In this document: in pieces, positions 9,754 to 51,177 of the stretch
How positions within the stretch are numbered: the first letter of the stretch is position 1
Layout of the letters: the number at the start of each line of letters is the position of its first letter
DNA from: Mactra quadrangularis
Taxonomy: Eukaryota; Mollusca; Bivalvia; Venerida; Mactridae
Assembly (NCBI GenBank): GCA_025267735.1
Contig: CM046294.1
Location: 36,239,222 to 36,303,221 of the forward strand
Length of the DNA stretch: 64,000 nucleotides
Direction of reading: 5' to 3'
Translations under genes and position numbers: made by a program
The notes under the pieces: generated by a model
The model's input: only the letters and a program-made list of their open reading frames with translations
Database searches by the model: none
Told to the model about the DNA's origin: nothing

Positions 9754-10015
9754 TTATTGAAACATAAAGGGACCACTGGCGGCATTTTGTGGCAATGATG
9801 TAGAATTTGCTGCCTCCTGGGTTACAATAGATGCCGTGTGTGTAACAGTTGAACTCGAACTTGACGACAAAATGTTTGAAATCGATCTAGCTTGTCTGTT
9901 ATTCATGTGACAATAATTGTTGAGGCTATTGACATTCTTATCGCCTGAAATATAGACAATTTGATTTGGGGAAACACCTTCATCACTAAGCTTTTGGATC
10001 AGTATTTTTCTTGCA
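9754..10015 (-). CDS. Terminal exon of a DUF3504 (tyrosine-recombinase-like) gene
   Basis: Splice acceptor TTTCCAG at 10016-10017, then 87 codons to a TAA at 9754-9756. The reading SARKILIQKLSDEG, VYISGDKNVNSLNNYCHMN is the C-terminal core of DUF3504 proteins (the ZMYM / QRICH1 / KIAA1958 group, known to derive from Crypton tyrosine recombinases). The usual His of the HxxR box is Tyr here (YSAR), and the second box has Asp where His is usual (GDKN); the Tyr of NNY is kept. A Ser-rich tail follows. It joins in phase to the exon at 10533-10656 (AG + T gives Ser). An AATAAA signal at 9758-9753 overlaps the stop codon. Clearly coding; whether still expressed is doubtful because the upstream exon is broken. 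Confidence 0.8.
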
Positions 10016-10532: not shown

Positions 10533-10656
10533 CTGTAGAGTTTAATTTTGCTGTCTTCTATGCCTGCATCAGCTTTCATCTCGTTCATTATGTTGTATAT
10601 TTTGTTTATTCCCATCGGTTGACTTTTGAACCAACATCTTTGGTTTGGGCTTGCAG
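10533..10656 (-). CDS. Second half of a DUF3504 exon cut by a hAT-like element
   Basis: The - strand reads ASPNQRCWFKSQPMGINKIY and then IMNEMKADAGIEDSKIKLY, followed by a donor AG|GTAAAG. WFKSQPMGINK is a hallmark of DUF3504 proteins. The open frame runs upstream into the hAT element at 10657, where its sequence stops making sense. The 8 bases at 10649-10656 are the target duplication. The missing first half of this exon is on the other strand at 14106-14241, and the two fit in the same phase across the shared 8 bp. Confidence 0.85.
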
Positions 10657-12122
10657 TAGTGATGTTCCGATTATCGCCGACGTCGCCAAAATCGGTTAGA
10701 AAAATTTCAGCGACGATTAATCGATTACGATTTCTGTGGACGGCGACGCGTGGCGGAAAACTAGCCCGTACCAAAGGGAGATAATTCACTTTCGTGTGCG
10801 CGCTATAATGGCGGATTCGGCAGAAAATGTTTTCAATAACAACTTTTCTTCGACGTAACCTACGTGCCCGACGCCCGAGACGAGTGATTTCGCCGACGAG
10901 CGAGCGAAAATCTTAGCCAGTAGCTCGATCGGACGAGTCCTCTTTACGTATCCGAATCATGTTTGTATCCGAAAAAGGTGTACTCGAACGCACTTTTACG
11001 TTAACTTTTATCTGAGATTTTTGCGTAATTACTCTTTTACACATTCATAGTTCCGTTTCGTAATCAAATTAAAGATGAAAAATTTAATGTTGACCAGCAA
11101 ACTCTTTTGTCTTACCGCTTCTAAATGATAAAGCTTAACTTTTGGTCAAGGTCATTTGTCATAAACGAATTTTTCACGGAGCGCGATTTTAGGCTACCAT
11201 TAAAGTAACACTAGCTGCCATAAAGCATAGAGATTGAAAGCTGTTCATTTCACGATGATTTCTCAATAATGATGTTATGGTTGAAATCATACAACGGTAA
11301 TTTGAAGTATTAAAAACGTCAGAGTAAATGTAAAACATTCGTCCCCAATAATTTTCGTACTCGGCACGTTATGGATTTGTTTTCAAATATATTTTTCAAT
11401 GTTTGAAAATGAGCCCATTTAAACGAATTTACAATAATTGTTAGATCAAAATTGAAAATATGTCATTTGATGAAATTGATCAGAACGGATCTTTGGTGGC
11501 TCAGACCCTGAAATATTGGTAGCCTCCTCATTTGTGAATTATGTAATGCCCTATCATTTGATTTCATTATATCATAAATTGCTGGTTACTTTGAACACAA
11601 TTGCATAAAGCTAGAGTAGATAATGTGACTTAAATTATTTTGAATGAATTTTCCCAGAAATATAAAAAACAGATTAGTTATTTTGTTTGATGCCTTAGAT
11701 GTACAAAAATAAAATACACATTGTAAAGGACATTTCTCTGTAAAATGCCTTAGGCTAGTGAATTTCGATTCAACCTAGTGAAAATTGTTACCCGGTAGCC
11801 CAACTAACCATTGACACAAATAAACTTAAAGACATGTAAAATAAAGTTTATTTTGTTTGTATTTTTTCACTCAGATGAGTGAACTGATGCCATATTGTTC
11901 ATATTAAGCTAAGAAGCAAGATAAGAACATTATGAATAATGTATACAACATTTTAATCATTGAAATAGATGTATATTTTGCATGTTTATGTAAGACAATG
12001 ACCAGAATTTAGCTATATAAATTTTGGCATCCAACCGATTATAATCGGAAAGTCAGTCGGTTGAGCCCAACCGATTCCTCCGATTAATCGATTGTGAATT
12101 TTCCAACCGATTGCCATCACTA
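10657..12122 (+). mobile_element. Non-autonomous hAT-like transposon, copy A
   Basis: 1466 bp, ends TAGTGATG...CATCACTA with short inverted repeats, continuing into GATTAATCG-rich subterminal sequence on both sides. TAGNG-type ends and 8-bp target duplications are typical of the hAT superfamily. No transposase frame. Flanked by GCTTGCAG on the left and GAGTTTAA on the right, which do not match each other but match the two flanks of copy B in inverse orientation. Copy B without its LINE is about 1465 bp and closely similar along its length. Confidence 0.85.
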
Positions 12123-12360
12123 GAGTTTAACATAAGCTTTATATGCCCTTTGTGTATTATCGAATCGTTTAAATGATCATTACAGTTATTTATTTAGTTC
12201 GAACTCTTAATTGTGTATTACATTATTATATTATCTATATTATGGTTTCTATTAATCCATTAGTGTTCTAGAGATGGCTTTTATTAATGTATATTTCAAA
12301 CAGATTTAAAAAAAACTGATAAATAATCATTACGAACTTGATAAAAGTGGTAAAATAATA
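12123..12360. repeat. Dispersed repeat, copy 1 (paralogue at 22.7 kb)
   Basis: This sequence aligns with 22747-22965: AGTTTAACATAA, then TATTTAGTTCGAAC(T/A)CTTAATTG, then TTAAAAAAAACT. The 22.7-kb copy also continues to the left into sequence matching the complement of 19495-19560, so it represents the unbroken locus. Family unknown. Confidence 0.7.
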
Positions 12361-13648
12361 TCCATACAAGTGATTTGATATGTTGCCGCTTTTGCTTTCA
12401 ATTTTATTTTTTTGCTCTCTGATATCATTTATATTGTTACGTACATTGCAAAACATTAATAATGCAACTAGACCAATTACTAAGGCCTAAAATAGAAATG
12501 GAGTGACTGCACAGTATGTCTGATAGAAAAGTGCGATATATCAAAGAAATTAAGTGCATGTATACATATAATTGATTAAAAATACAAACTTAAAACCTAT
12601 ACGTAAATCATTTAGAATTTAATTGTCATCCCTTTACCTGAACGGTCTTAAATGCGACAATTTTCATATAACATGTGCTTGATAAGTAGTATACACACTT
12701 GTATGTCCACAAATGAAAATCATGAACATCAAAATATGCCATTTGATTTGGCAATCAATACTTTTCTGACAATTTTATTACTGACAATTTCTGACAATTA
12801 TATTTATAATTAATACTTAAATTGTACTATAAATAATACAATATGTTACGGTAACATATATTTCACATTCTAAATGATCTCTATTAAGTAAGAGTTATAC
12901 TTTAGGAACTTGTATGTTCTATTAATAAATCTCAAATATCATATGAATAGTTTTTATGAACGAGCCATTATTGTAAAAGCCTTATAGAAAAATGGTAATT
13001 TGTTTGTAATTTGGTTACGGCATTTAACCTGATTTTCTTCTAAAACATACCAACATTTCGTCTGAAGGCATTGCAGAATGATCATTTGTACGTGAAACAT
13101 TCTCTCAGATGATTTCTATCGGTTTGCATAATCAAAAACACTTTAACGTAAATTACGGCGTACATTTTCTATATACTGAAACAAAATTGCACTTATTACA
13201 TGCACTTTTGATTTTGGTAGTAAAAATGATTTGTTTGAGATCAATTTTATCAACAGAGCAAAACTTATGTGGCATAAAATGAGAATGATAAAATTCAGTT
13301 ACGGTATTTCATATGCTATAACTTTAAGACAACTTGAATAATAGATGCAAAACTCATTGGAAAATGTTTACATTGATATTTTGTATTCAAAAACATGGTT
13401 ATTAGTTAACTTTGTCATAAGAGTAAGCACTTATAAAAAATGATCAACCCCAATTTAGTACATTTTACACTGTAACGTAAATGAAAGCTGATATATCATG
13501 GGTATAAGCACCAAATTTAATATGATTTGTGCAAATATGTTGTAAATGCATTCAAAATAAAATATCATTAATCAAAAATGTGATTTGATGTAAGTAACAG
13601 CTGAAAAAGTATGCACGAATTTTAGAGTGCACTTTGGTTTTTTAGTAA

Positions 13649-13812
13649 CGTACATCTTTGAGCTCAGATTGTGGGAAAACGCCTACCTCGCCAGTTTTAA
13701 GAAATGCATTTTCAAATTCCTCAGACAAAACTACATTAGAATCACTCATCAAACTATTTGGGCGCGATACCGCACCTAAAACCCTGCGAGCTCTCGGACT
13801 GACAGTTCTATT
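13649..13812 (-). CDS. Candidate isolated exon, product unknown
   Basis: A patch richer in G+C than its surroundings. On the - strand an AG acceptor precedes TVSPRARRVLGAVSRPNSL and the frame runs to QSELKD before a GTACGT donor. The + strand is also open over much of the same bases (SDCGKTPTSPVLRNAF), so the strand is uncertain. No family recognised. It lies in the inverted segment; on the - strand it would oppose the DUF3504 fragment there. Confidence 0.3.
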
Positions 13813-14105
13813 ACAATGTAACAATATAATTTATATACATAATTTCACATACAGCACAGAAGTCATTGTTTGGTCCTTGAAACTTGTAACTATAATATTA
13901 GATCTGTATCTAAAGCAGACTTTGATCTAAACATGTCAATAATAGGAAGGGCCTAAACAAAATTTCTTTGTTGAATGTTTTCAATATAAATATGTCCTAG
14001 CATTTTACACCAATAATCAATGCATTGATTTTATTGTAACCTATTTCTCAAATTATGTAAACAATTTTTATTTCATGCCACATTTAAAAGTGTCTTATTT
14101 TTCAG

Positions 14106-14241
14106 ACAAAATCAGCCACAGGCTTATGCCATTCATGATGATCTACTTAGAGATCCAGTGTCACTGTACAACAAATATATGGAAATGAGACCTCTTTCAA
14201 TGCTACATGATGAAGCACCTTTTTTTCTAAGTACTGCAAGC
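14106..14241 (+). CDS. First half of the split DUF3504 exon
   Basis: After a strong acceptor (TTATTTTTCAG) the + strand reads QNQPQAYAIHDDLLRDPVSL, then YNKYMEMRPLSML and APFFLSTAS, and stops abruptly at the hAT copy B at 14242. The DPVSLYNKY..RP...FFL pattern is the conserved DUF3504 segment that normally precedes WFKSQPxGxNK. That motif is found on the opposite strand at 10648-10533. The last 8 bases, CTGCAAGC, are the target duplication. In this position the fragment cannot be spliced to its original downstream exon. Confidence 0.85.
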
Positions 14242-14891
14242 TAGTGATGGCAATCGGTTGGAAAATTCACAATCGATTAATCGGAGGAATCGGTTGGGCT
14301 CAACCGACTGACTTTCCGATTATAATCGGTTGGATGCCAAAATTTATATAGCTACATTCTGGTCATTGTCTTACATAAACATGCAAAATATACATCTAAT
14401 TCAATGATTTAAATGTTGTATACATTATTCATTATTTTCTTATCTTGCTTCTTAGCTTAATATGAACAATATGGCACCAGTTCACTCATCTGAGTAAAAA
14501 AAAAAAAAAACAAATAAACTTTATTTAACATGTCTTTAAGTTTATTTGTGTCAATGGTTAGTTGGGCTACCGGGTAGCAATTTTCACTAGGTTGAATCGA
14601 AATTCACTAGCCTAAGGCATTTTACAGAGAAATGTCCTTTACAATGTGTATTTTATTTTTGTACATCTAAGGCATCAAACAGAATAATTAATCTGTTTTT
14701 TATATTTCTGGGAAAATTCATTCAAAATAATTTAAGTCACATTATCTACTCTAGCTTTATGCAATTGTGTTCAAAGTAACCAGCAATTTATGATATAATG
14801 AAATCAAATGATAGGGCATTACATAATTCACAAATGAGGAGGCTACCAATATTTCAGGGTCTGAGCCACCAAAGATCCGTTCTGATCAATT

Positions 14892-17800
14892 GAACAGAAC
14901 AGAACAGAACATATTCTTTATTATATTAAGCACAGGTTACATTATATAGAGTAACAGCATGTGTGATAATTGGTAATGGTTAACAGAATACAATATTGAT
15001 ATAGATTTATAGAGTTACGGGGAATTAAAATGTATAGAGTATAGAGTAGGTATATAAATATAAATATGACTATTATGTATAATGAAAGTCAATTCATTTT
15101 TAAGTTCAAAAACAATAGGATAAACAATGTAATAAATGAATGGAAACTAAGTTTTAACTTTTAAATTTATGAAAATATTGGATGTGTAATTACGTATTGT
15201 ACAAATTTGCTAAGGTTTATAAGCGTGGCTTCTTCTTTAACATTCATTAGCGCTTCAAAGTTTCTCAAACTAGGATAGTTATAAAAATTGGGAGGAATTA
15301 ATTTTTGTCTGGAGGGTCCAAAAAAAGTACATTCTAATAAATAATGTTTTTCGTTACCAATGGAATTTAAATCACATAAATGACAGCGTCTGTCCTCGTA
15401 TCGTACGTAAGGTCGCGTCCATCGTCCTGTCTCTACGGGAAGTCGGTGGTTGCCTGTTCTAAAATGAAATAGGCTAATTCTATGTGTATGATTTAAAATA
15501 GTAAGGTAGTTTTCAAAATGTGTATTTTCTTTAAAAGAATGATAGTTATATCCCTTTGATGATGTAGTTAAACTAGATTCCCAGGATTGTTTAAATTGGT
15601 CATTTAGCGTACATTTAACAAGTGTGTGAATAGGTTTTAAATTCATGTTAAATTGGCTTAACCATACATAAGTGTTCCCGGTAGTATCTAATATATTTTT
15701 AATATAATTTAGCCACTTAAATGAGCTATGAGATTGTAACATGTATTTATAACATAAATGTGCTATTTTTGATTTATTTTCAATTACAATGTTACTCCAG
15801 AACTTAATCATTCTAGTTTTAATAGTAATATCAACTGGGTGTCGACCTAGCTCCGCGTAGAGCATATATTTCGGCGTGCTTTTGCGAGATTTGGTTATAG
15901 TTCTAAGAAAATTACAATGAAATGTTTCAATTAAATCCAAATTATTAAACCCCCAGATTTCGCACCCGAATGTGAGTATAGGTAATATTGTACAGTCAAA
16001 TAACTTAAGTTGAAGATCTATAGGTAAATGTAGGTTTTGTATTCGTGCACGGAATGCAAAAAGGGCTTTACTTGCCTGTATTATTAGTTGTTTTATATGG
16101 TTTAGGAAGCTGCCGGTTGAAGAAAAGACTACCCCCAGGTATTTGTAAGTTTTGACAATTTCAATGGGTCTTTTGTTAATTTCAAAAGAGTATTTATCAA
16201 TTTTATTTGTGCCAAAGATTATTAACTTTGTTTTGGAGAAATTAACATTTAGTTTCCATTGGTTACAATACGTGTTAAAATCGTTGAGTAAATTTTAAAA
16301 GTCTATCTCATTGTCACTTAGGACTATTGTATCGTCTGCGTATAGGAGAACAAGTATTTTGAGAAATAGATTACTACCGTTATCGTCGATATTTAATCCT
16401 ATACCATTATTTTGAGTCGAGAGATATTCACTTAAGTCGTTGAGATATATCGAGAATAATATGGGAGACAAATTTTCTCCTTGTCGAACCCCACAATAAC
16501 TATTAAAGAAAGAAGAAGTATTTCCATTATTAGAGACACATGTTTTAATATCGGAGTACACACTTGTAATAACTTGAAAAACTTTACCGCGTATACCTAA
16601 TTTGAACAACTTGCTCCAGAGCCCTGACCTCCATACAGAATCGAACGCCGCTGTGAAATCAATAAAACAACAGAACAATTTATTTTTACTAGCCCGGATC
16701 TTTTCAATAAGGAAATTTAAAGTAAATATATGATCACATGTCGAATATCCGGTTCTAAACCCGGCTTGATTTTCGTTTAATAAATTATTATCATTGAGAA
16801 ATTTATTTATTCTATCGTTGATGATGGATGTAAAAATTTTCCCTAAACAACTAAGAATCGTTATCGGTCTGTAACCACCGGGGTCAAGGGTCGAGCCTTT
16901 ATTCTTAAAAATTGGTTTGATAGTACCGATAAGCCAGTTGTCTGGTAAGATGCCAGTGTCCATTATTGTATTAAACAGTTCACAATAGATAGGTAACATG
17001 AAAGGTTTCGTACAGTTTAGATATTCATTGGATATATTATCAAAATTTGACGAAGATTTGCCATTTGCACACTTTTTGATCATTCGATCTATTTCGGTAA
17101 TTGTGATAGCATCATTCAGTGATTGTGTACTTTCAATGGTAGGTATGAATGAGTCATCAAATTGTTCATGAAAAGGTTCGTGTTGTGTGTTATTGATGTT
17201 TGTAAAGTGCTGAAAGAAGGATTCTATATCTGGTTGTTGTTGTTGTGTACCTTGTTTTTTTATACTATTTAAAACTTTCCAATAGTCTTTTGGTTTAGAC
17301 AAATTCAAATGACGTAGACGTTTTTCTCGTGAAAGGGCATGTCGTTTGATGAATGAATTCATGGTTTGTTTATACGATTTACTAGCCAAGTTTAAATTAC
17401 GTTTGTTTTGACTAGTTTTACTATTACGATATTTTCTACGTGCTTTATTATACACATTTCTAGCTGTTCTACAACGAGGCCCGAACCAAGGTTTATTGTG
17501 TCTTGAATTCTGTGATTTGTTATTTGGATACTTATGCGTTGGAAACGTGATGTCGGCTGATTTTGAAAAAAGGAAAGAAATTTTATCAGTTATTGTATTT
17601 AATTGGATTTTAATATCTGAGTTACGGTCAATCGGCAAGGATGTTTGGATGTCATTAACTATAGATTCGTCGATATTATTGGAAAATTCACATTTTTTAG
17701 ACTCTACCCAGCGTTGAGTTGAATTTGTGTTTCTTATTACAGATTAATCATTTTTTGGACTATGTAATGTGAGATCTAATGATAGGAGACAATGGCCGTC

Positions 17801-18671
17801 AGAAAGTAAACTGTCTGTTTCAATAATATTGAAACTATGTATGTATTGAAGAACATTGATTGTCGAGATTGAGTAATCTATAACAGATACATTTCTAAAT
17901 GTACATGTGCCAATGTTACGGTCTGACCCTAACCGACCGTTATGTATCAGAAGATTATTTATTTTGCATATATTGAGGAGACGAGTGCCAAGTCGATTAT
18001 GTTTATTACATTTGGAGGATCTTACAAGTGGCACATTAAAGCGTTCTAAATCTTCAGTATGGTCCGAACTGTTTAATGTATTATCATCAAGGTTTAAGTG
18101 TTGTGTTAGAAAATTGTCCGAGTCAGTATAGTCAGGTAAGTTAGAAGTATGTGCATTTGCGTCACCCATAATTAATACATTACAATAATCAATACATTTA
18201 CTAGTGATCTCATTTTCAAAAATAAACAACTCATCTTCATTTAAAAATTTAGCACCGATAACAATGTCAATTGAATTTAGACACCTTAGCTTCAGCCAGT
18301 ATACGTATTCCGAGCTTGAAGATAAAATTTCGGTATAATCATTGATAGACTTGTGTACAAAAAACCCTATACCACCAGACTTACGTTTATAATTAGCGGT
18401 TCTCGGCTTAGAATAGAATGTATAATTAGGTACATCAATAATATCATATATATCTAATTTAGTTTCAGCAACACATAATATAGAAAATTGGTTAATCATA
18501 GCGATAAATTCTGGATAATTCAAACGTGGTTCTAGACCGCAGACATTGAGACAACCAATTTTAAGATTGCAGGAATCAATTTGTAGGGAGCCAATATTAT
18601 TGTCACAATTATTATTTTCATGGTCATGAAAGTGAGAGCCATGTTCACAATTATCATATCTAGATGTACAA
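14892..18671 (-). mobile_element. 5'-truncated LINE (APE-type non-LTR retrotransposon)
   Basis: Inserted into hAT copy B on the - strand. The 3' end is a short tandem tail of GTTCT units (14892-14912 on the + strand: GAACA repeats) rather than poly(A). The 5' end starts directly at the endonuclease region, so ORF1 and the 5' UTR are absent. Comparison with copy A shows about 2 bp of target lost and no target duplication. Endonuclease plus reverse transcriptase plus a C-terminal CCHC-like motif suggests the Jockey/CR1 group; the exact clade is not determined. Confidence 0.85.
15167..18671 (-). pseudogene. LINE ORF2 (endonuclease-reverse transcriptase), two stops
   Basis: One continuous frame of about 1,170 codons, broken only by two TAA codons at 17744-17746 and 16295-16297; I checked that the frame is the same before and after each. 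Order: apurinic endonuclease-like domain (KIGCLNVCGL, VAETKLD, SGGIGFFVH, MGDANAH), linker, reverse transcriptase (GGYRPITILSCLGKI, CCFIDFTAAFDSVW, GVRQGENLSP, LLYADDTIVLS), thumb region (YKYLGVVFSSTGSF) and a C-terminal C-x2-C-x9-H-x4-C. The catalytic YADD is intact. Both stops are one change from a Gln codon, so the copy is young but dead. Confidence 0.9.
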
Positions 18672-19494
18672 ATCAAATGACATATTTTCAATTTTGATCT
18701 AACAATTATTGTAAATTCGTTTAAATGGGCTCATTTTCAAACATTGAAAAAAAATTTTGAAAAAAAAATCCATAACGTGCCGAGTACGAAAATTATTGGG
18801 GACGAATGTTTTACATTTACTCTGACGTTTTTAATACTTCAAATTACCGTTGTATGATTTCAACCATAACATCATTATTGAGAAATCATCGTGAAATGAA
18901 CAGCTTTCAATCTCTATGCTTTATGGCAGCTAGTGTTACTTTAATGGTAGCCTAAAATCGCGCTCCGTGAAAAATTCGTTTATGACAAATGACCTTGACC
19001 AAAAGTTAAGCTTTATCATTTAGAAGCGGTAAGACAAAAGAGTTTGCTGGTCAACATTAATTTTTTCATCTTTAATTTGATTACGAAACGGAACTATGAA
19101 TGTGTAAAAGAGTAATTACGCAAAAATCTCAGATAAAAGTTAACGTAAAAGTGCGTTCGAGTACACCTTTTTCGGATACAAACATGATTCGGATACGTAA
19201 AGAGGACTCGCCCGATCGAGCTACTAGCTAAGATTTTCGCTCGCTCGTCGGCGAAATCACTCGTCTCGGGCGTCGGGCACGTAGGTTACGTCGAAGAAAA
19301 GTTGTTATGAACACATTTTCTGCCGAATCCGCCATTATAGCGCGCACACGAAAGTGAATTATCTCCCTTTGGTACGGGCTAGTTTTCCGCCACGCGTCGC
19401 CGTCCACAGAAATCGTAATCGATTAATCGTCGCTGAAATTTTTCTAACCGATTTTGGCGACGTCGGCGATAATCGGAACATCACTATTAAACTC

Positions 19495-21545: not shown

Positions 21546-22699
21546 AAATAGTTTAAGTTTATTTTACTAAAGTATTGCCAGGGAGAATATAAACTATATT
21601 TTAAAAAAGTAAGAACAAGTTTTTTTTTCTGAAAACCTACTGAAATAAACATGAATATAATCAGTTTTGATAAGACAGATTGGTCTTTACGCATTTACTT
21701 GTGTGAAGTTTACAATAATGCAGTTTTCATGCGCTATGGGTAGTATGTCATACACATAAAATATAAGAACATAAAAATGAAGAATTAATTAAGTCCGATG
21801 TTCGACTAGGCAAAACAATGTGTACACTTAACACTTATTCGAAAGTGTGAAATAGTAATATACATTTCTTGGTTTCATCGAGTGCTAATTCGTAACCTAC
21901 GTTACAAAACAAAAATTATGACTGGTCAATCGTTTGATATATTTCACCAGAATGCTATAAAATGCGCATACATGTAAATGGTATATAAAAAGTAGCTTTA
22001 TGTTTAATAAAAAAACTCGTTGATTTGTTATTTGACTTGATTTTGGTATTTGAATTTCCCGGGGAGCAAATATTTAAAACATAAGCGATAACGTGCGATA
22101 CTCATTAATTTGTCTATTGGCAATGGAGATTGGAATATTTTCTAATTCATTCGCATGATATAAATGCATTCTCTCTAACTGCGTAACAATTACAACAATG
22201 AACACTTGCTTCAACAATTATTATCCGAATGTTTAAGTATTAGACAGCTAGAAATTTAATAGTTTTGTAAACCGATACAATTAACGTGTTTAAATAAAAT
22301 ATAGTGGGGCTTCATTAGTACCTATGAACAATACTATTTTAACAAATTACCAAGTGTTTAACTGCATTTGAAGCTTTGGAAATACGTCATTAAACGTCTT
22401 TGAAATAAGTCGTATGTGTTATTCTTTCCTGAATTTTTCCATGTAAACTTCATATTCAACGTGAAATGTACGTGACAAATGAATAAACATATGATGATAT
22501 TTAATAAGCTTGATTAAAAACAATTAAACTGAAATACGTTCACATGTCACACAAACAAGTGTGTACAAATTAAAACCGGAAATACAGCACAACCCATTTC
22601 CATTCTTGTTTTATTTGAATATTTTACCAATGTCAACCTCAATGAAAATACGTCTTAGATAAATTGAGATGAAAATGAATCATAAGAGATGATATGATG
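21546..22699. other. No gene recognised
   Basis: AT-rich spacer with no exon-like sequence or repeat that I can delimit. Confidence 0.45.
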
Positions 22700-22965
22700 A
22701 CATATTAAAGCTTTTAAAACTATATCTTTCGTTAATGCATATCACTAAGTTTAACATAAACTCTATTTGTCCTTCGCATATTATGTAATCGTTTGAATAA
22801 TCAATACAGTTATCTATTTAGTTCGAACACTTAATTGCGTATTACAATTTTTAAGTTATGGTTACAGTTTAACCCATTGGTAATCTGGAGAAGGTTTTAT
22901 AAATGTAAAAAAGATTTAAAAAAAACTCTAATGAAGAATCATGTTACCACTTTAATCAAGTTCAT
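22700..22965. repeat. Dispersed repeat, copy 2 (unbroken locus)
   Basis: Matches the complement of 19487-19560 on its left and 12123-12360 on its right, joined without interruption at AAGTTTAA (22747-22754). It is thus a paralogous empty site for the hAT insertion that made the GAGTTTAA duplication. Confidence 0.7.
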
Positions 22966-33353: not shown

Positions 33354-35395
33354 CAAAATACAATATTGTTAAATTACATATGTCATGTTGTATTTTGCCA
33401 ATACCTAAATAAATCTATCAATCTAAACCTAATCTAAACACACAAGTTTTTTGGCTTGCTAGTAACATGCAAAGACAAATACTAGTGCTAAAACAAAACT
33501 TACATAATACAACTACAGTCACGGTACTACTGTTTACACCAGCAACATGACCTCCAGTTGATGGATTCATTGTATTATATACACTACATTTGTATTCTCC
33601 AGCGTCTATCTTCATTATATTATATAACTGAAGTAGTTGTATATTCAAAGAATCAGCTATTCTTGGTCCTGTCCATGTATATCTATCTGGTGATGGTTTA
33701 CTGTCTGCTGTACACTCGATACTTCCGGTATTACCTTCTATAAATGAAATATCTCCATATGTACTATTAGCATTCACTATAAATGCCGGTTTTGATGGAG
33801 GATCTGTAATAGAAACATTTATGTATTTACTTCCATATAATATGTGTATAATATCGTTAATAGACATTTTGCCTTTGACGAATAAACGTATAAATAGTTA
33901 TAATACTAATGCTGTGACATGTTGATGCATTTAAAATAATATAAGTATTATTAGATATTGAGCTTTAAAATAGCTTATTAAATTTTAAATAAAAGACAAC
34001 GTAACATTAGTTTATAGATATTTATTTGCATTTGTTAAATCAAATTGAATCACTATTTCACGCCAGATTGAATATAACATATTGGTTCTCTTTTCTCATT
34101 ATTGGCGAGACAAGTTACTGGTTCTATATAACTCAGTCTAGAAATAAGCAACATTTATTTTGTAAAACAAATGAAAGGCTTAATGCAAAAATTTTGTATA
34201 ACATTGGCAATTATAAAAAACATTGGTTAGACCCCCACAATTATATAAAAGCAATTATAAAATCGAATACTCACATAATACAATCAATTTAACATCGATT
34301 GATTCATTTGTAAACCCTGTTTGTTGAGATGTAAATGTACATGTTCCTTCGTGTGTTCTTGATACATTCCATGTTAATGTTGCAGTGACGTTTGCATCTG
34401 AGTTGATGATTGATTGGTATATAGGTGAGACATTAATACAACTCCATGATAATGTTGGTGTAGGATTTCCACCTTTAACACTACAAGATAATGTCCCCAA
34501 GGAATGTTCTATCACACGATATTCATTACCTTGAAGAATGTAGGGGTCTCCTGCCTTGTCTGAAAATGCATGAATACATCTTCAAATATAAATATAATCA
34601 AATTGAATGTTAAAAACTTATAATTAATTGCATACTTATTATGTCAAATTACTATTTCTCATAGAGTCCACAACAATTATCAGAAATAGTATGACGTAGA
34701 TAACTTATCTTTACATATATTTAAGGACAGAATGAATCAAATCTGACGGGACATACTTCTATTTGTCAAACACTTAGTCATATATGTAACAATATACATA
34801 ATGTATGCGATTAAAAGGCACACGGAGAGAGACATATTGACTATTTATATGTATATCATTACGTCAATATGTAGTACATTGTATATTCGGATTTTACTGT
34901 TGGTTTTTGAATATACTATTTCAATATACAATGTATTATGGGTAAACTTCTGAATAAATAAATCAATGAATTAAAAAGTTGGCTATAATATTAGTATATT
35001 AATATATACTCTCCATACAAAAGTTATGAAAATACACTTTCATGAGCTTTATGCTTACTTACACAGAACGTTCAGTAATGTCTTCTTGTTAGGTCTAACT
35101 GGACTCGTGTTGACAGAATTGTTAGCTGTACAGTATATTTTGGTGTTACTATGTTGTCGTTTTGGTACAAAATGAAGCGTACTGGTTGTTACACTTAAAT
35201 CACTGTAGTCAGTTGTTGATGTTGTTATATTTTCTGTTATTTGAGTTATATCGTTACTGTTATTCAAATCTCTAAACCAATATACCAAGGCAGCAGGTCT
35301 TGCTGTTAATGCTGTACATGTTAGCTCTATAACTGTGTTTTCTATGACATTTACGCGATATTCGTCAGGTAGCATCGTAACGGATGTCAGTGGAG
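27939..35395 (-). CDS. Ig-domain transmembrane receptor with ITIM-like tail
   Basis: Twelve phase-checked exons, 5' to 3' on the - strand. Ig1 35395-35063, Ig2 34559-34275, Ig3 33803-33504, Ig4 32468-32187, Ig5 31878-31603, all phase 1-1 with Cys pairs (for example ELTCTALTARP...IYCTANN; GEYKCSVYN). Then TM 30929-30807 (LIGGIVGGVTGCIIIGIVII, then basic RRYQQRK). Cytoplasmic: 30226-30196, 29752-29702 (AYTNTG), 29418-29362 (ATYNVI), 29019-28963 (VYYNVV), 28596-28508 (SNYEMV, TPYSSL) and last 27997-27939 (GVYENM), stop at 27939-27941. Single-pass surface receptor; SxYxxV and VxYxxV fit the ITIM consensus and YxN suits Grb2-type SH2 domains (known biology; function here is inferred). The signal-peptide exon is not certain; a weak candidate with MVCVIFLFQYHP and a phase-1 donor lies near 36033-35998. 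Ligand unknown; an adhesion receptor is the alternative. Confidence 0.88.
29152..29342. mobile_element. pogo/Tc1-like MITE with GGTTATAACATAC repeats
   Basis: Ends ACAGTAGAACTTGGTTATAA and its near complement TTATATCCAAGTTTTACTGT. Inside, GGTTATAACATAC(T/A)C(G) is repeated several times. CAGTA(G/A)AA-type ends are typical of pogo-related MITEs. Lies in an intron of the Ig receptor gene. Confidence 0.7.
32600..33035. repeat. Dense inverted/direct repeat built on TGTCGTATTTTCGTTTCTTC
   Basis: At least eight blocks of the motif or its complement (GAAGAAACGAAAA...ATACGACA) alternate in both orientations with short spacers, so adjacent blocks can pair as hairpins. Because stop codons are rare in this composition, long open frames appear in five frames on both strands; none is a gene. 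Lies between Ig4 and Ig3 exons. Confidence 0.85.
33179..33319. repeat. Long hairpin, ~57-bp arms
   Basis: TACCACATGAGGGTCCACAA at the left and TTGTGGACCCTCATGTGGTA-like complement (TTCCATTGTGGACCCTCATG) at the right; arms near-perfect, loop about 28 bp. Immediately followed by (AT)n. Probably a fold-back MITE in an intron of the Ig receptor gene. Confidence 0.85.
33318..33350. repeat. (AT)n microsatellite
   Basis: About 16 uninterrupted TA units between two hairpins. Confidence 0.95.
33350..33404. repeat. Small hairpin
   Basis: ATTGGCAAAATACAA and its complement TTGTATTTTGCCAAT flank an AT-rich loop. With the adjacent AT run and larger hairpin it forms a palindrome-rich cluster. Confidence 0.8.
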
Positions 35396-49621: not shown

Positions 49622-49929
49622 TGTTTATTTCTGTGTTTATGGATGCCATAGGACACCAACTTTGCAGATAAACATTTATTGTTCTTTTTTCAGCAATAGG
49701 CATTTTTCTTAAATGTTGTATTGAAGTTTGAACTTCGATTATTAATTACCTTAGCCTTATATTTGGCGAGTTTAAGACTGATATTTCATTTTTTTTTACA
49801 TCTAGTGACTAATGATATTGAAATTCGCCATTGTAACTAAGTATCTTGTGTTTTATGCTACATATTTTGTCATTTTGTATTTTGTTCTTATTCTCTGTAC
49901 TTAAAAGTTTATGCTTATTTCATACAAGT

Positions 49930-51177
49930 ATGTCCAACATAAAACAAACACTACAGAATGCTCTGGAATCGGGAAAAAATTGTGATGCTGTTTTAGAACT
50001 GAAGTCTGGTAAATCATTCACGTGTCATTCTTTCATTTTACGTTTAAATAGTGAATATTTTGAGTCTTTTTTTAAGGATGAGTGGAAAACTAATGATAAC
50101 ATCCCTACTATTCATTGTATAGATTTTGATGATAAATATGTTATCGGTGTTATACGATTTATGTATGGCATCCCTTGTAATTTAACTCTTGAAAATATTG
50201 AAATTTTTATGGCATGTGCTGTTTATTATGGTGTGGATGAGCTTTGTGAGCAGCTGGATTCTTTTTGTATTTCAAACTTATCTTCATCTAATGCTTTGGG
50301 ATTTCTCCAAATTGCTACTGAAAATGGGCGTAAAAATTTTGAAAATTATGTTCTCGCATTTATTGACACTTGCTTTGTTGAAGTTATAAATGCAAATGAT
50401 AAATTTTGCTCTTTACCTAAAACCCTAGTTGTTTTAATTATTCAACGCAAATCTTTGAGTGTAAATGATGAATATCTATTTTCAACTTCAATGTCTTACA
50501 TTGATGCTTGTGGGGACAATAACTTATTAAAAGAATTTTCTTCCCACTTCATTTATACCCAGATGAGCCTTGAATTTTTTGTCCGTGAATGTGTTACTCG
50601 TGATTTTTTAGACCCGATTACACAGAGCAATGTGTTGTTATACTTGTCATCACTCTCTGCTTCTACTGCTGATATTGGGTACGGCAAAGGTAGAAAAATG
50701 GTTATGGACACTGACCTTTATGTTAGGAGATGCTGTCAGCCATCTGATTCTGCTTCATGGGTCTCAGATCAAATGGATGGTGACAGATGTAAAATAAAGT
50801 TAGATGTTGATATGAGATTAAAAGCAGTTGATATTTTTGGAAGACCAAATGAGTCATTATTTTATGAACTTTCAGTATTTACTTCCGGCTCTGGAGAGCT
50901 GCTTGACACAATTAGTGGTAGATTATGTTTTGGCCAAGATGAAATTAATCAGCCTGTTCTGTTTCATAAGCCTCTTTTATTAAAAAAAGATTTATATTAT
51001 ACTTTTGTTTTAAAAACTAAAGGAACAGAAACGTTTTTTTGTGTAAATTGTATCCAGACCCAAATTTTATCATCAAATAAAGTGATTGGTAATGTGACTT
51101 TCCACAGTTCTGAAAGTGGATCATCTTCCGTGTCTGGGGGACAGTTTTTTGGATTTGTGTTCATTAAAAATATCTGA
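49930..51177 (+). CDS. Intronless BTB-BACK-PHR domain protein (BTBD-like)
   Basis: 415 codons from the ATG at 49930 (MSNIKQTLQNALE); the frame is open a further 28 codons upstream but these encode a hydrophobic run unlike the family. BTB domain at about residues 15-120 (CDAVLELKSGKSFTCHSFIL, SEYFESFF, RFMYG), BACK-like helices at about 120-215, and a C-terminal PHR-type beta domain (LYYTFVLKT, GNVTFHSSESGSSSVSGGQF, FGFVF). This order is that of the BTBD1/2/3/6 group, known as substrate adaptors of Cullin-3 ubiquitin ligases; that role here is inference. Vertebrate and insect relatives have introns, so a single exon suggests a retrocopy or lineage-specific intronless member. It begins 308 bp after the stop of the integrase-core gene on the same strand. 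Possible poly(A) signal ATTAAA at 51221. Confidence 0.9.
   Translation: MSNIKQTLQNALESGKNCDAVLELKSGKSFTCHSFILRLNSEYFESFFKDEWKTNDNIPTIHCIDFDDKYVIGVIRFMYGIPCNLTLENIEIFMACAVYYGVDELCEQLDSFCISNLSSSNALGFLQIATENGRKNFENYVLAFIDTCFVEVINANDKFCSLPKTLVVLIIQRKSLSVNDEYLFSTSMSYIDACGDNNLLKEFSSHFIYTQMSLEFFVRECVTRDFLDPITQSNVLLYLSSLSASTADIGYGKGRKMVMDTDLYVRRCCQPSDSASWVSDQMDGDRCKIKLDVDMRLKAVDIFGRPNESLFYELSVFTSGSGELLDTISGRLCFGQDEINQPVLFHKPLLLKKDLYYTFVLKTKGTETFFCVNCIQTQILSSNKVIGNVTFHSSESGSSSVSGGQFFGFVFIKNI

Follow-up and report, generated by a model that had tools for sequence, protein, structure and literature searches.

Exchanged target duplications point to a 2.1-kb inversion ending at two oppositely oriented sister hAT-like copies in Mactra quadrangularis

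Features of the locus

The window, by which we mean the whole 64,000-nucleotide stretch analysed (Mactra quadrangularis, assembly GCA_025267735.1, contig CM046294.1, positions 36,239,222 to 36,303,221, forward strand), contains two hAT-like copies of opposite orientation whose 3' ends point towards one another. The same region holds the two halves of an exon encoding part of a DUF3504 domain, the next exon of that gene, an arm of a dispersed repeat and a LINE that lies inside the second hAT copy. The positions of these features, together with the four 8-bp duplications that flank the two copies, are collected in Table 1. Elsewhere in the window, we observed an open reading frame (ORF) for a BTB-BACK-PHR protein at 49846–51177 and immunoglobulin-domain exons on the minus strand at 33418–33867 and 35055–35375.

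Table 1. Positions of the features at the locus, numbered from the first base of the window
Feature	Position	Strand	Evidence or remark
Next exon of DUF3504 gene	9757–10015	-	In frame, to stop
Downstream half of split DUF3504 exon	10533–10648	-	GT donor after 10533
Outer-left 8-bp target duplication, GCTTGCAG (site A, first half)	10649–10656	+	Sequence
hAT-like copy 1, 1466 bp	10657–12122	+	Non-autonomous
Inverted segment, including inner member of each duplication	12123–14241	-	Exchanged duplications, exon continuity, repeat continuity
Inner-left 8-bp duplication, GAGTTTAA (site B)	12123–12130	-	Sequence; reverse complement of outer-right
Dispersed-repeat arm, cut off at site B	12131–13800	+	Continues into 19495–~19832 when order restored
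Upstream half of split DUF3504 exon (with duplication)	14106–14241	+	AG acceptor ending at 14105
Inner-right 8-bp duplication, CTGCAAGC (site A, second half)	14234–14241	-	Sequence; reverse complement of outer-left
hAT-like copy 2, 1465 bp of hAT in two pieces	14242–19486	-	Pieces at 14242–14891 and 18672–19486
LINE insertion in copy 2, ~3.78 kb	~14892–18671	-	Reverse transcriptase RVT_1, 118 bits
Outer-right 8-bp target duplication, TTAAACTC (site B)	19487–19494	+	Sequence
Related repeat stretch, uninterrupted across restored site B	22597–22942	-	72% over 376 columns

With the LINE left out, copy 1 and copy 2 were 98.4% identical. Both ends of both copies carried the terminal inverted repeat TAGTGATG, read from the outside inward, and diverged beyond it. 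Copy 1 contained no ORF of 90 or more amino acids and is therefore called non-autonomous. The original prediction had described two hAT-like copies that were nearly identical and in opposite orientation, which our comparison bore out; the interval 14242–19486 also includes the LINE. The LINE has three ORFs in one frame with stops between them, and its 3' tail consists of TGTTC-type repeats. At its insertion point in copy 2, we saw no target duplication, and two hAT bases were missing.

Exchanged target duplications

The four 8-bp flanks of the two copies lie at the coordinates first proposed for them. Their swapped pairing was likewise reproduced: GCTTGCAG is the exact reverse complement of CTGCAAGC, and GAGTTTAA that of TTAAACTC, with eight of eight bases matching in both cases. 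Turning the segment 12123–14241 back gave both hAT copies a matching 8/8 duplication, as predicted. The exchange was exact to both hAT ends, with no bases gained or lost, and the ends of the inversion coincide with the inner (3') ends of the two oppositely oriented sister copies.

We considered whether the flanks could resemble each other by chance, with no inversion having taken place. The probability of both matches arising by chance was 2.3e-10 under equal base frequencies and 1.7e-10 under the composition of the window. When pairs of 8-mers were drawn at random from the window, reverse-complement matches occurred in 88 of 2,000,000 draws, which when squared gives about 2e-9. No point in favour of chance likeness was found, and we regard its probability as negligible; it is ruled out by these values (about 1e-10 to 2e-9) together with two independent tests of continuity, one at each target site.

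Ancestral order at the two target sites

The first continuity test concerns the DUF3504 exon at site A. In the present order, 3.5 kb separate its two halves, which are on different strands. When the segment was turned back, 14106–14241 followed by the reverse strand of 10648–10533 formed a single 252-nt exon with one open frame, an AG acceptor and a GT donor (splice sites read from the sequence). The restored exon leads through a 517-nt intron into the exon that begins at 10015 on the minus strand, in frame, for a total of 170 codons to the stop. Against the Pfam DUF3504 profile, the restored exon scored 34.4 bits (cut-off 29.7) over profile positions 96–160. The halves alone scored 14.2 and 14.1 bits over positions 95–131 and 137–161, respectively, and thus matched neighbouring parts of one profile. 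The spliced peptide scored 32.6 bits against DUF3504 and 24.1 bits against Phage_integrase, the latter being below the cut-off of 27.1, with a match that spans both joins. Crypton transposons are described as the source of DUF3504, which derives from their tyrosine recombinase (PMC3212892). Since the exon halves rejoin, the hAT target at site A appears to have lain in a coding exon. We found no upstream exons of the gene in the window with the motifs tried, and no protein relatives of the joined exon in a large protein database.

The second test concerns the repeat at site B. After the inner-left duplication, the inverted segment begins with 1670 bp (12131–13800) of a dispersed repeat that has at least 53 matches, including the window itself, with 40 of 329 candidates scored. 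We took a 601-base stretch spanning the matching place from each of the six repeat copies that scored highest after the window. All six crossed the restored site B join without a break, at 74–94% identity and with no hAT element. The 8-bp target was present once in each of these copies, either exactly (L064, L066, L067 and L069) or with its last base changed (L065 and L068). By contrast, the join of the present order was matched on one side only in 6 out of 6 copies. The related stretch at 22597–22942 within the window also crossed the restored join unbroken, containing the target once and no hAT element, and likewise matched the present-order joins on one side only. The order in which each target occurs once is thus represented at site B by paralogous, not allelic, repeat copies and at site A by exon continuity only.

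Several further observations were made on this repeat. Its arm is at least 1.67 kb long and often occurs in inverted pairs 1.7–8 kb apart (for example, on C4, C12, C18 and C7), which resemble a foldback or long-inverted-repeat DNA element. Two copies in the same assembly (G000), at C2:1628712-1630197 and C2:1689823-1691309, lie 61 kb apart in the same orientation and with the same match limits; they are probably a segmental duplication. No second haplotype of 12131–14233 was seen, as all places listed beyond the window had at most 97% identity, with 40 of 329 candidates scored.

The two continuity tests do not draw on the duplications and agree with them, so the restored order is the ancestral one. 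This applies to either end of the segment, and the two hAT insertions are the derived state. The predicted inversion of 12123–14241 is therefore backed by the duplications, by exon continuity at the left site and by uninterrupted repeat copies at the right site, and we are highly confident that this segment is inverted relative to the ancestral order.

An assembly error would give the same picture if the true order were un-inverted and a wrong path had been taken through the near-identical inverted repeats, and short reads break down in inverted repeats as long (1.47 kb) and as similar (98.4% identity) as these. However, the chromosome-scale contigs of tens of megabases suggest the use of long reads that would span 1.47 kb, and 23 substitutions as well as the LINE distinguish the two copies. 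We consider such an error improbable.

Related hAT copies elsewhere in the genome

Using copy 1 as a DNA query against the 979-Mb assembly, we obtained at least 49 matches, including copy 1 itself, with 40 of 775 candidates scored. Since this list of matches lacks copy 2, it may lack other near relatives as well. We took 39 hAT loci, of which 37 had both ends readable; L045 and L047 were left out, as their right ends could not be located. Among these 37 other copies, the target duplications matched at all eight positions in 27, at seven in two and at fewer in eight (L011, L020, L023, L028, L030, L033, L037 and L040). A mismatched pair is the exception among these copies.

In the 27 exact duplications, position 2 was T in 20 and position 7 was A in 22. 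The motif nTnnnnAn is the target preference of Ac-type hAT elements. Read in the sense of the element, sites A and B both have the A at position 7 and lack the T at position 2. The 8-bp target duplications, short terminal inverted repeats and target preference are those of a hAT DNA transposon.

At one locus (L014; G000:C18:3981000-3985000), a hAT copy is nested in inverted orientation within a 100%-identical copy of the same family, and each of the two has its own 8/8 duplication (CGGGCTAC inside and CTTCCCTT outside). Sister pairs also occur on different chromosomes, such as L022 and L023 (99.6%).

We then compared copies 1 and 2 with their relatives. In a tree of 40 rows, the two copies were sisters with support of 100/99, and 14 states between positions 32 and 1441 were common to these two alone among 38 rows. 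No chimerism was seen against the 36 other full copies; copies 1 and 2 were mutually closest along their whole length, and the differences between them, being mostly private or in homopolymer-like stretches, supplied no markers for recognising a chimera. The 5' half held 4 of the 23 differences (p 0.006), a distribution as extreme as this being found in 0 of 629 family pairs. With homopolymer-like stretches masked, it held 4 of 13 (p 0.17), and 4.3% of family pairs were as extreme. The scarcity of differences in the 5' half could reflect gene conversion, a hint in the aligned copies that fades on masking. The longest identical run between the two copies was not unusual, being reached in 548 of 5000 and 1186 of 5000 permutations.

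Possible origins of the inversion

Symbolic bookkeeping showed that the observed series of flanks, with the 3' ends inside, arises by two routes, namely a crossover between the inverted copies or a hybrid-end transposition. The first comprises two ordinary insertions and an exchange, and the second is one reaction. The sisterhood and closeness of copies 1 and 2 are expected under both.

The account that fits best is the crossover, and we hold it as a whole with moderate confidence. A DUF3504 (Crypton-type tyrosine-recombinase) gene would have received a hAT element at GCTTGCAG in one of its exons, and a second copy, most likely through a local hop, would have landed in inverted orientation 2.1 kb away at TTAAACTC in an old dispersed repeat. 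Homologous exchange between the inverted copies would then have turned the segment over, and the inner members of the two duplications with it. At some point, the LINE inserted into copy 2. As the hAT element would have interrupted the exon before the flip, the flip alone would have broken no intact exon.

Several results argue for this account. The inverted copies are a substrate for exchange, given their identity over 1.47 kb, and human inversions between inverted repeats of 1.6–24 kb are described as highly recurrent (PMC3961182). Local insertion occurs in the family, as the nested pair at L014 illustrates. The marks of ectopic recombination are present at the locus: copies in opposite orientation at both breakpoints, target duplications exchanged twice and exactly to both hAT ends, and an ancestral order that the restored exon and all six repeat copies at site B support. 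On the other side, copies 1 and 2 showed no sign of chimerism and are each other's closest relatives, as a hybrid-end insertion also predicts, and an un-inverted chromosome with both copies was not seen in the one assembly.

A one-step hybrid-end transposition, involving sister chromatids or homologues that carry the same single hAT insertion, would produce these flanks in this series and likewise leave the 3' ends turned towards one another. It predicts sister copies, and these are what the tree and the states restricted to the pair revealed. According to Delprat et al. (PMC2775673), the one thing that sets the outcome of this route apart from that of ectopic recombination is that it yields identical copies, not chimeric ones. 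Ac/Ds, itself a hAT system, is reported to perform sister-chromatid and other alternative transpositions (PMC8225341, PMC3744419). However, alternative transposition is described as rarer than the standard kind, even where Ac/Ds is active (PMC8225341), and adjoining sister copies can also result from a local hop, after which the inverted repeats can recombine. The copies are now 1.6% apart, so any identity at birth would no longer be visible. We regard it as possible but doubtful. An aberrant transposition by hAT ends had been mentioned as an alternative in the original prediction; that the two copies are sisters makes it more credible than was implied there. Were it true, a single event would have produced the inversion along with the second copy and second duplication, and an un-inverted two-copy chromosome would never have existed; the locus would then offer a natural instance, from an animal-type genome, of a hAT transposase joining the ends of hAT copies on sister chromatids. 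Explanations beyond the crossover, a hybrid-end insertion and mis-assembly have, in our estimate, very little probability left to them.

Comparison with known inversions

The inversion is a new and clean instance of chromosome rearrangement by transposons, along a route already known. The Galileo inversions of Drosophila buzzatii (2z3, and also 2j and 2q7) are described as having, as here, transposon copies in opposite orientation at both breakpoints, exchanged target duplications and secondary insertions nested in the copies (PMC2775673). Galileo belongs to the P superfamily and has 7-bp duplications, whereas the element studied here is hAT-like with 8-bp duplications. The Galileo copies were shown to be chimeric by comparison with non-inverted chromosomes (PMC2775673), whereas here the copies are sisters, the inversion measures 2.1 kb and one assembly was available. 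Delprat et al. met the same ambiguity between routes at 2z3, where it was settled by the chimeric copies (PMC2775673).

The Ac/Ds system of maize and rice resembles the present element in being a hAT system with 8-bp duplications and inversions that have element copies at their breakpoints (PMC8225341, PMC3744419, PMC3470690), and its alternative transpositions are of the kind to which the hybrid-end route belongs. Reversed-ends transposition was also considered as a candidate. Ac/Ds inversions of that type are described as having one newly made duplication and as losing the piece between the elements (PMC8225341), neither of which applies here. At the present locus, there are two target sequences only, each occurring twice, and both empty sites are restored without loss; reversed-ends transposition is thus ruled out.

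In human inversions between inverted repeats, the intervening segment is flipped likewise, the repeats measuring 1.6–24 kb as against about 1.47 kb here. Those inversions were genotyped in many people and found to be recurrent (PMC3961182), whereas ours is seen in one assembly. We saw no other case of exchanged duplications around hAT copies in the open-licence papers searched, although one may exist in print.

A single reference genome with no comparison species yielded the inversion event, its polarity and its agent: the exchanged duplications establish that there was an inversion, and the interrupted exon and interrupted repeat tell which order is the old one. The locus makes the choice between a crossover and a hybrid-end transposition testable by genotyping. 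Any DNA-transposon family that makes duplications of fixed length could be surveyed genome-wide in the same manner.

Within the present hAT family, we looked beside the eight copies with mismatched duplications for partners carrying the exchanged duplication. None was found, either by BLAST in 16 stretches of up to 10 kb or, for six of the eight copies, by duplication sequence as well. Some of the eight, such as L020, L037 and L040, have altered ends, so not all mismatched copies are rearrangements. Four copies (L011, L023, L028 and L037) have clearly mismatched duplications, with 1–3 of 8 bases matching, and are candidates for further rearrangements.
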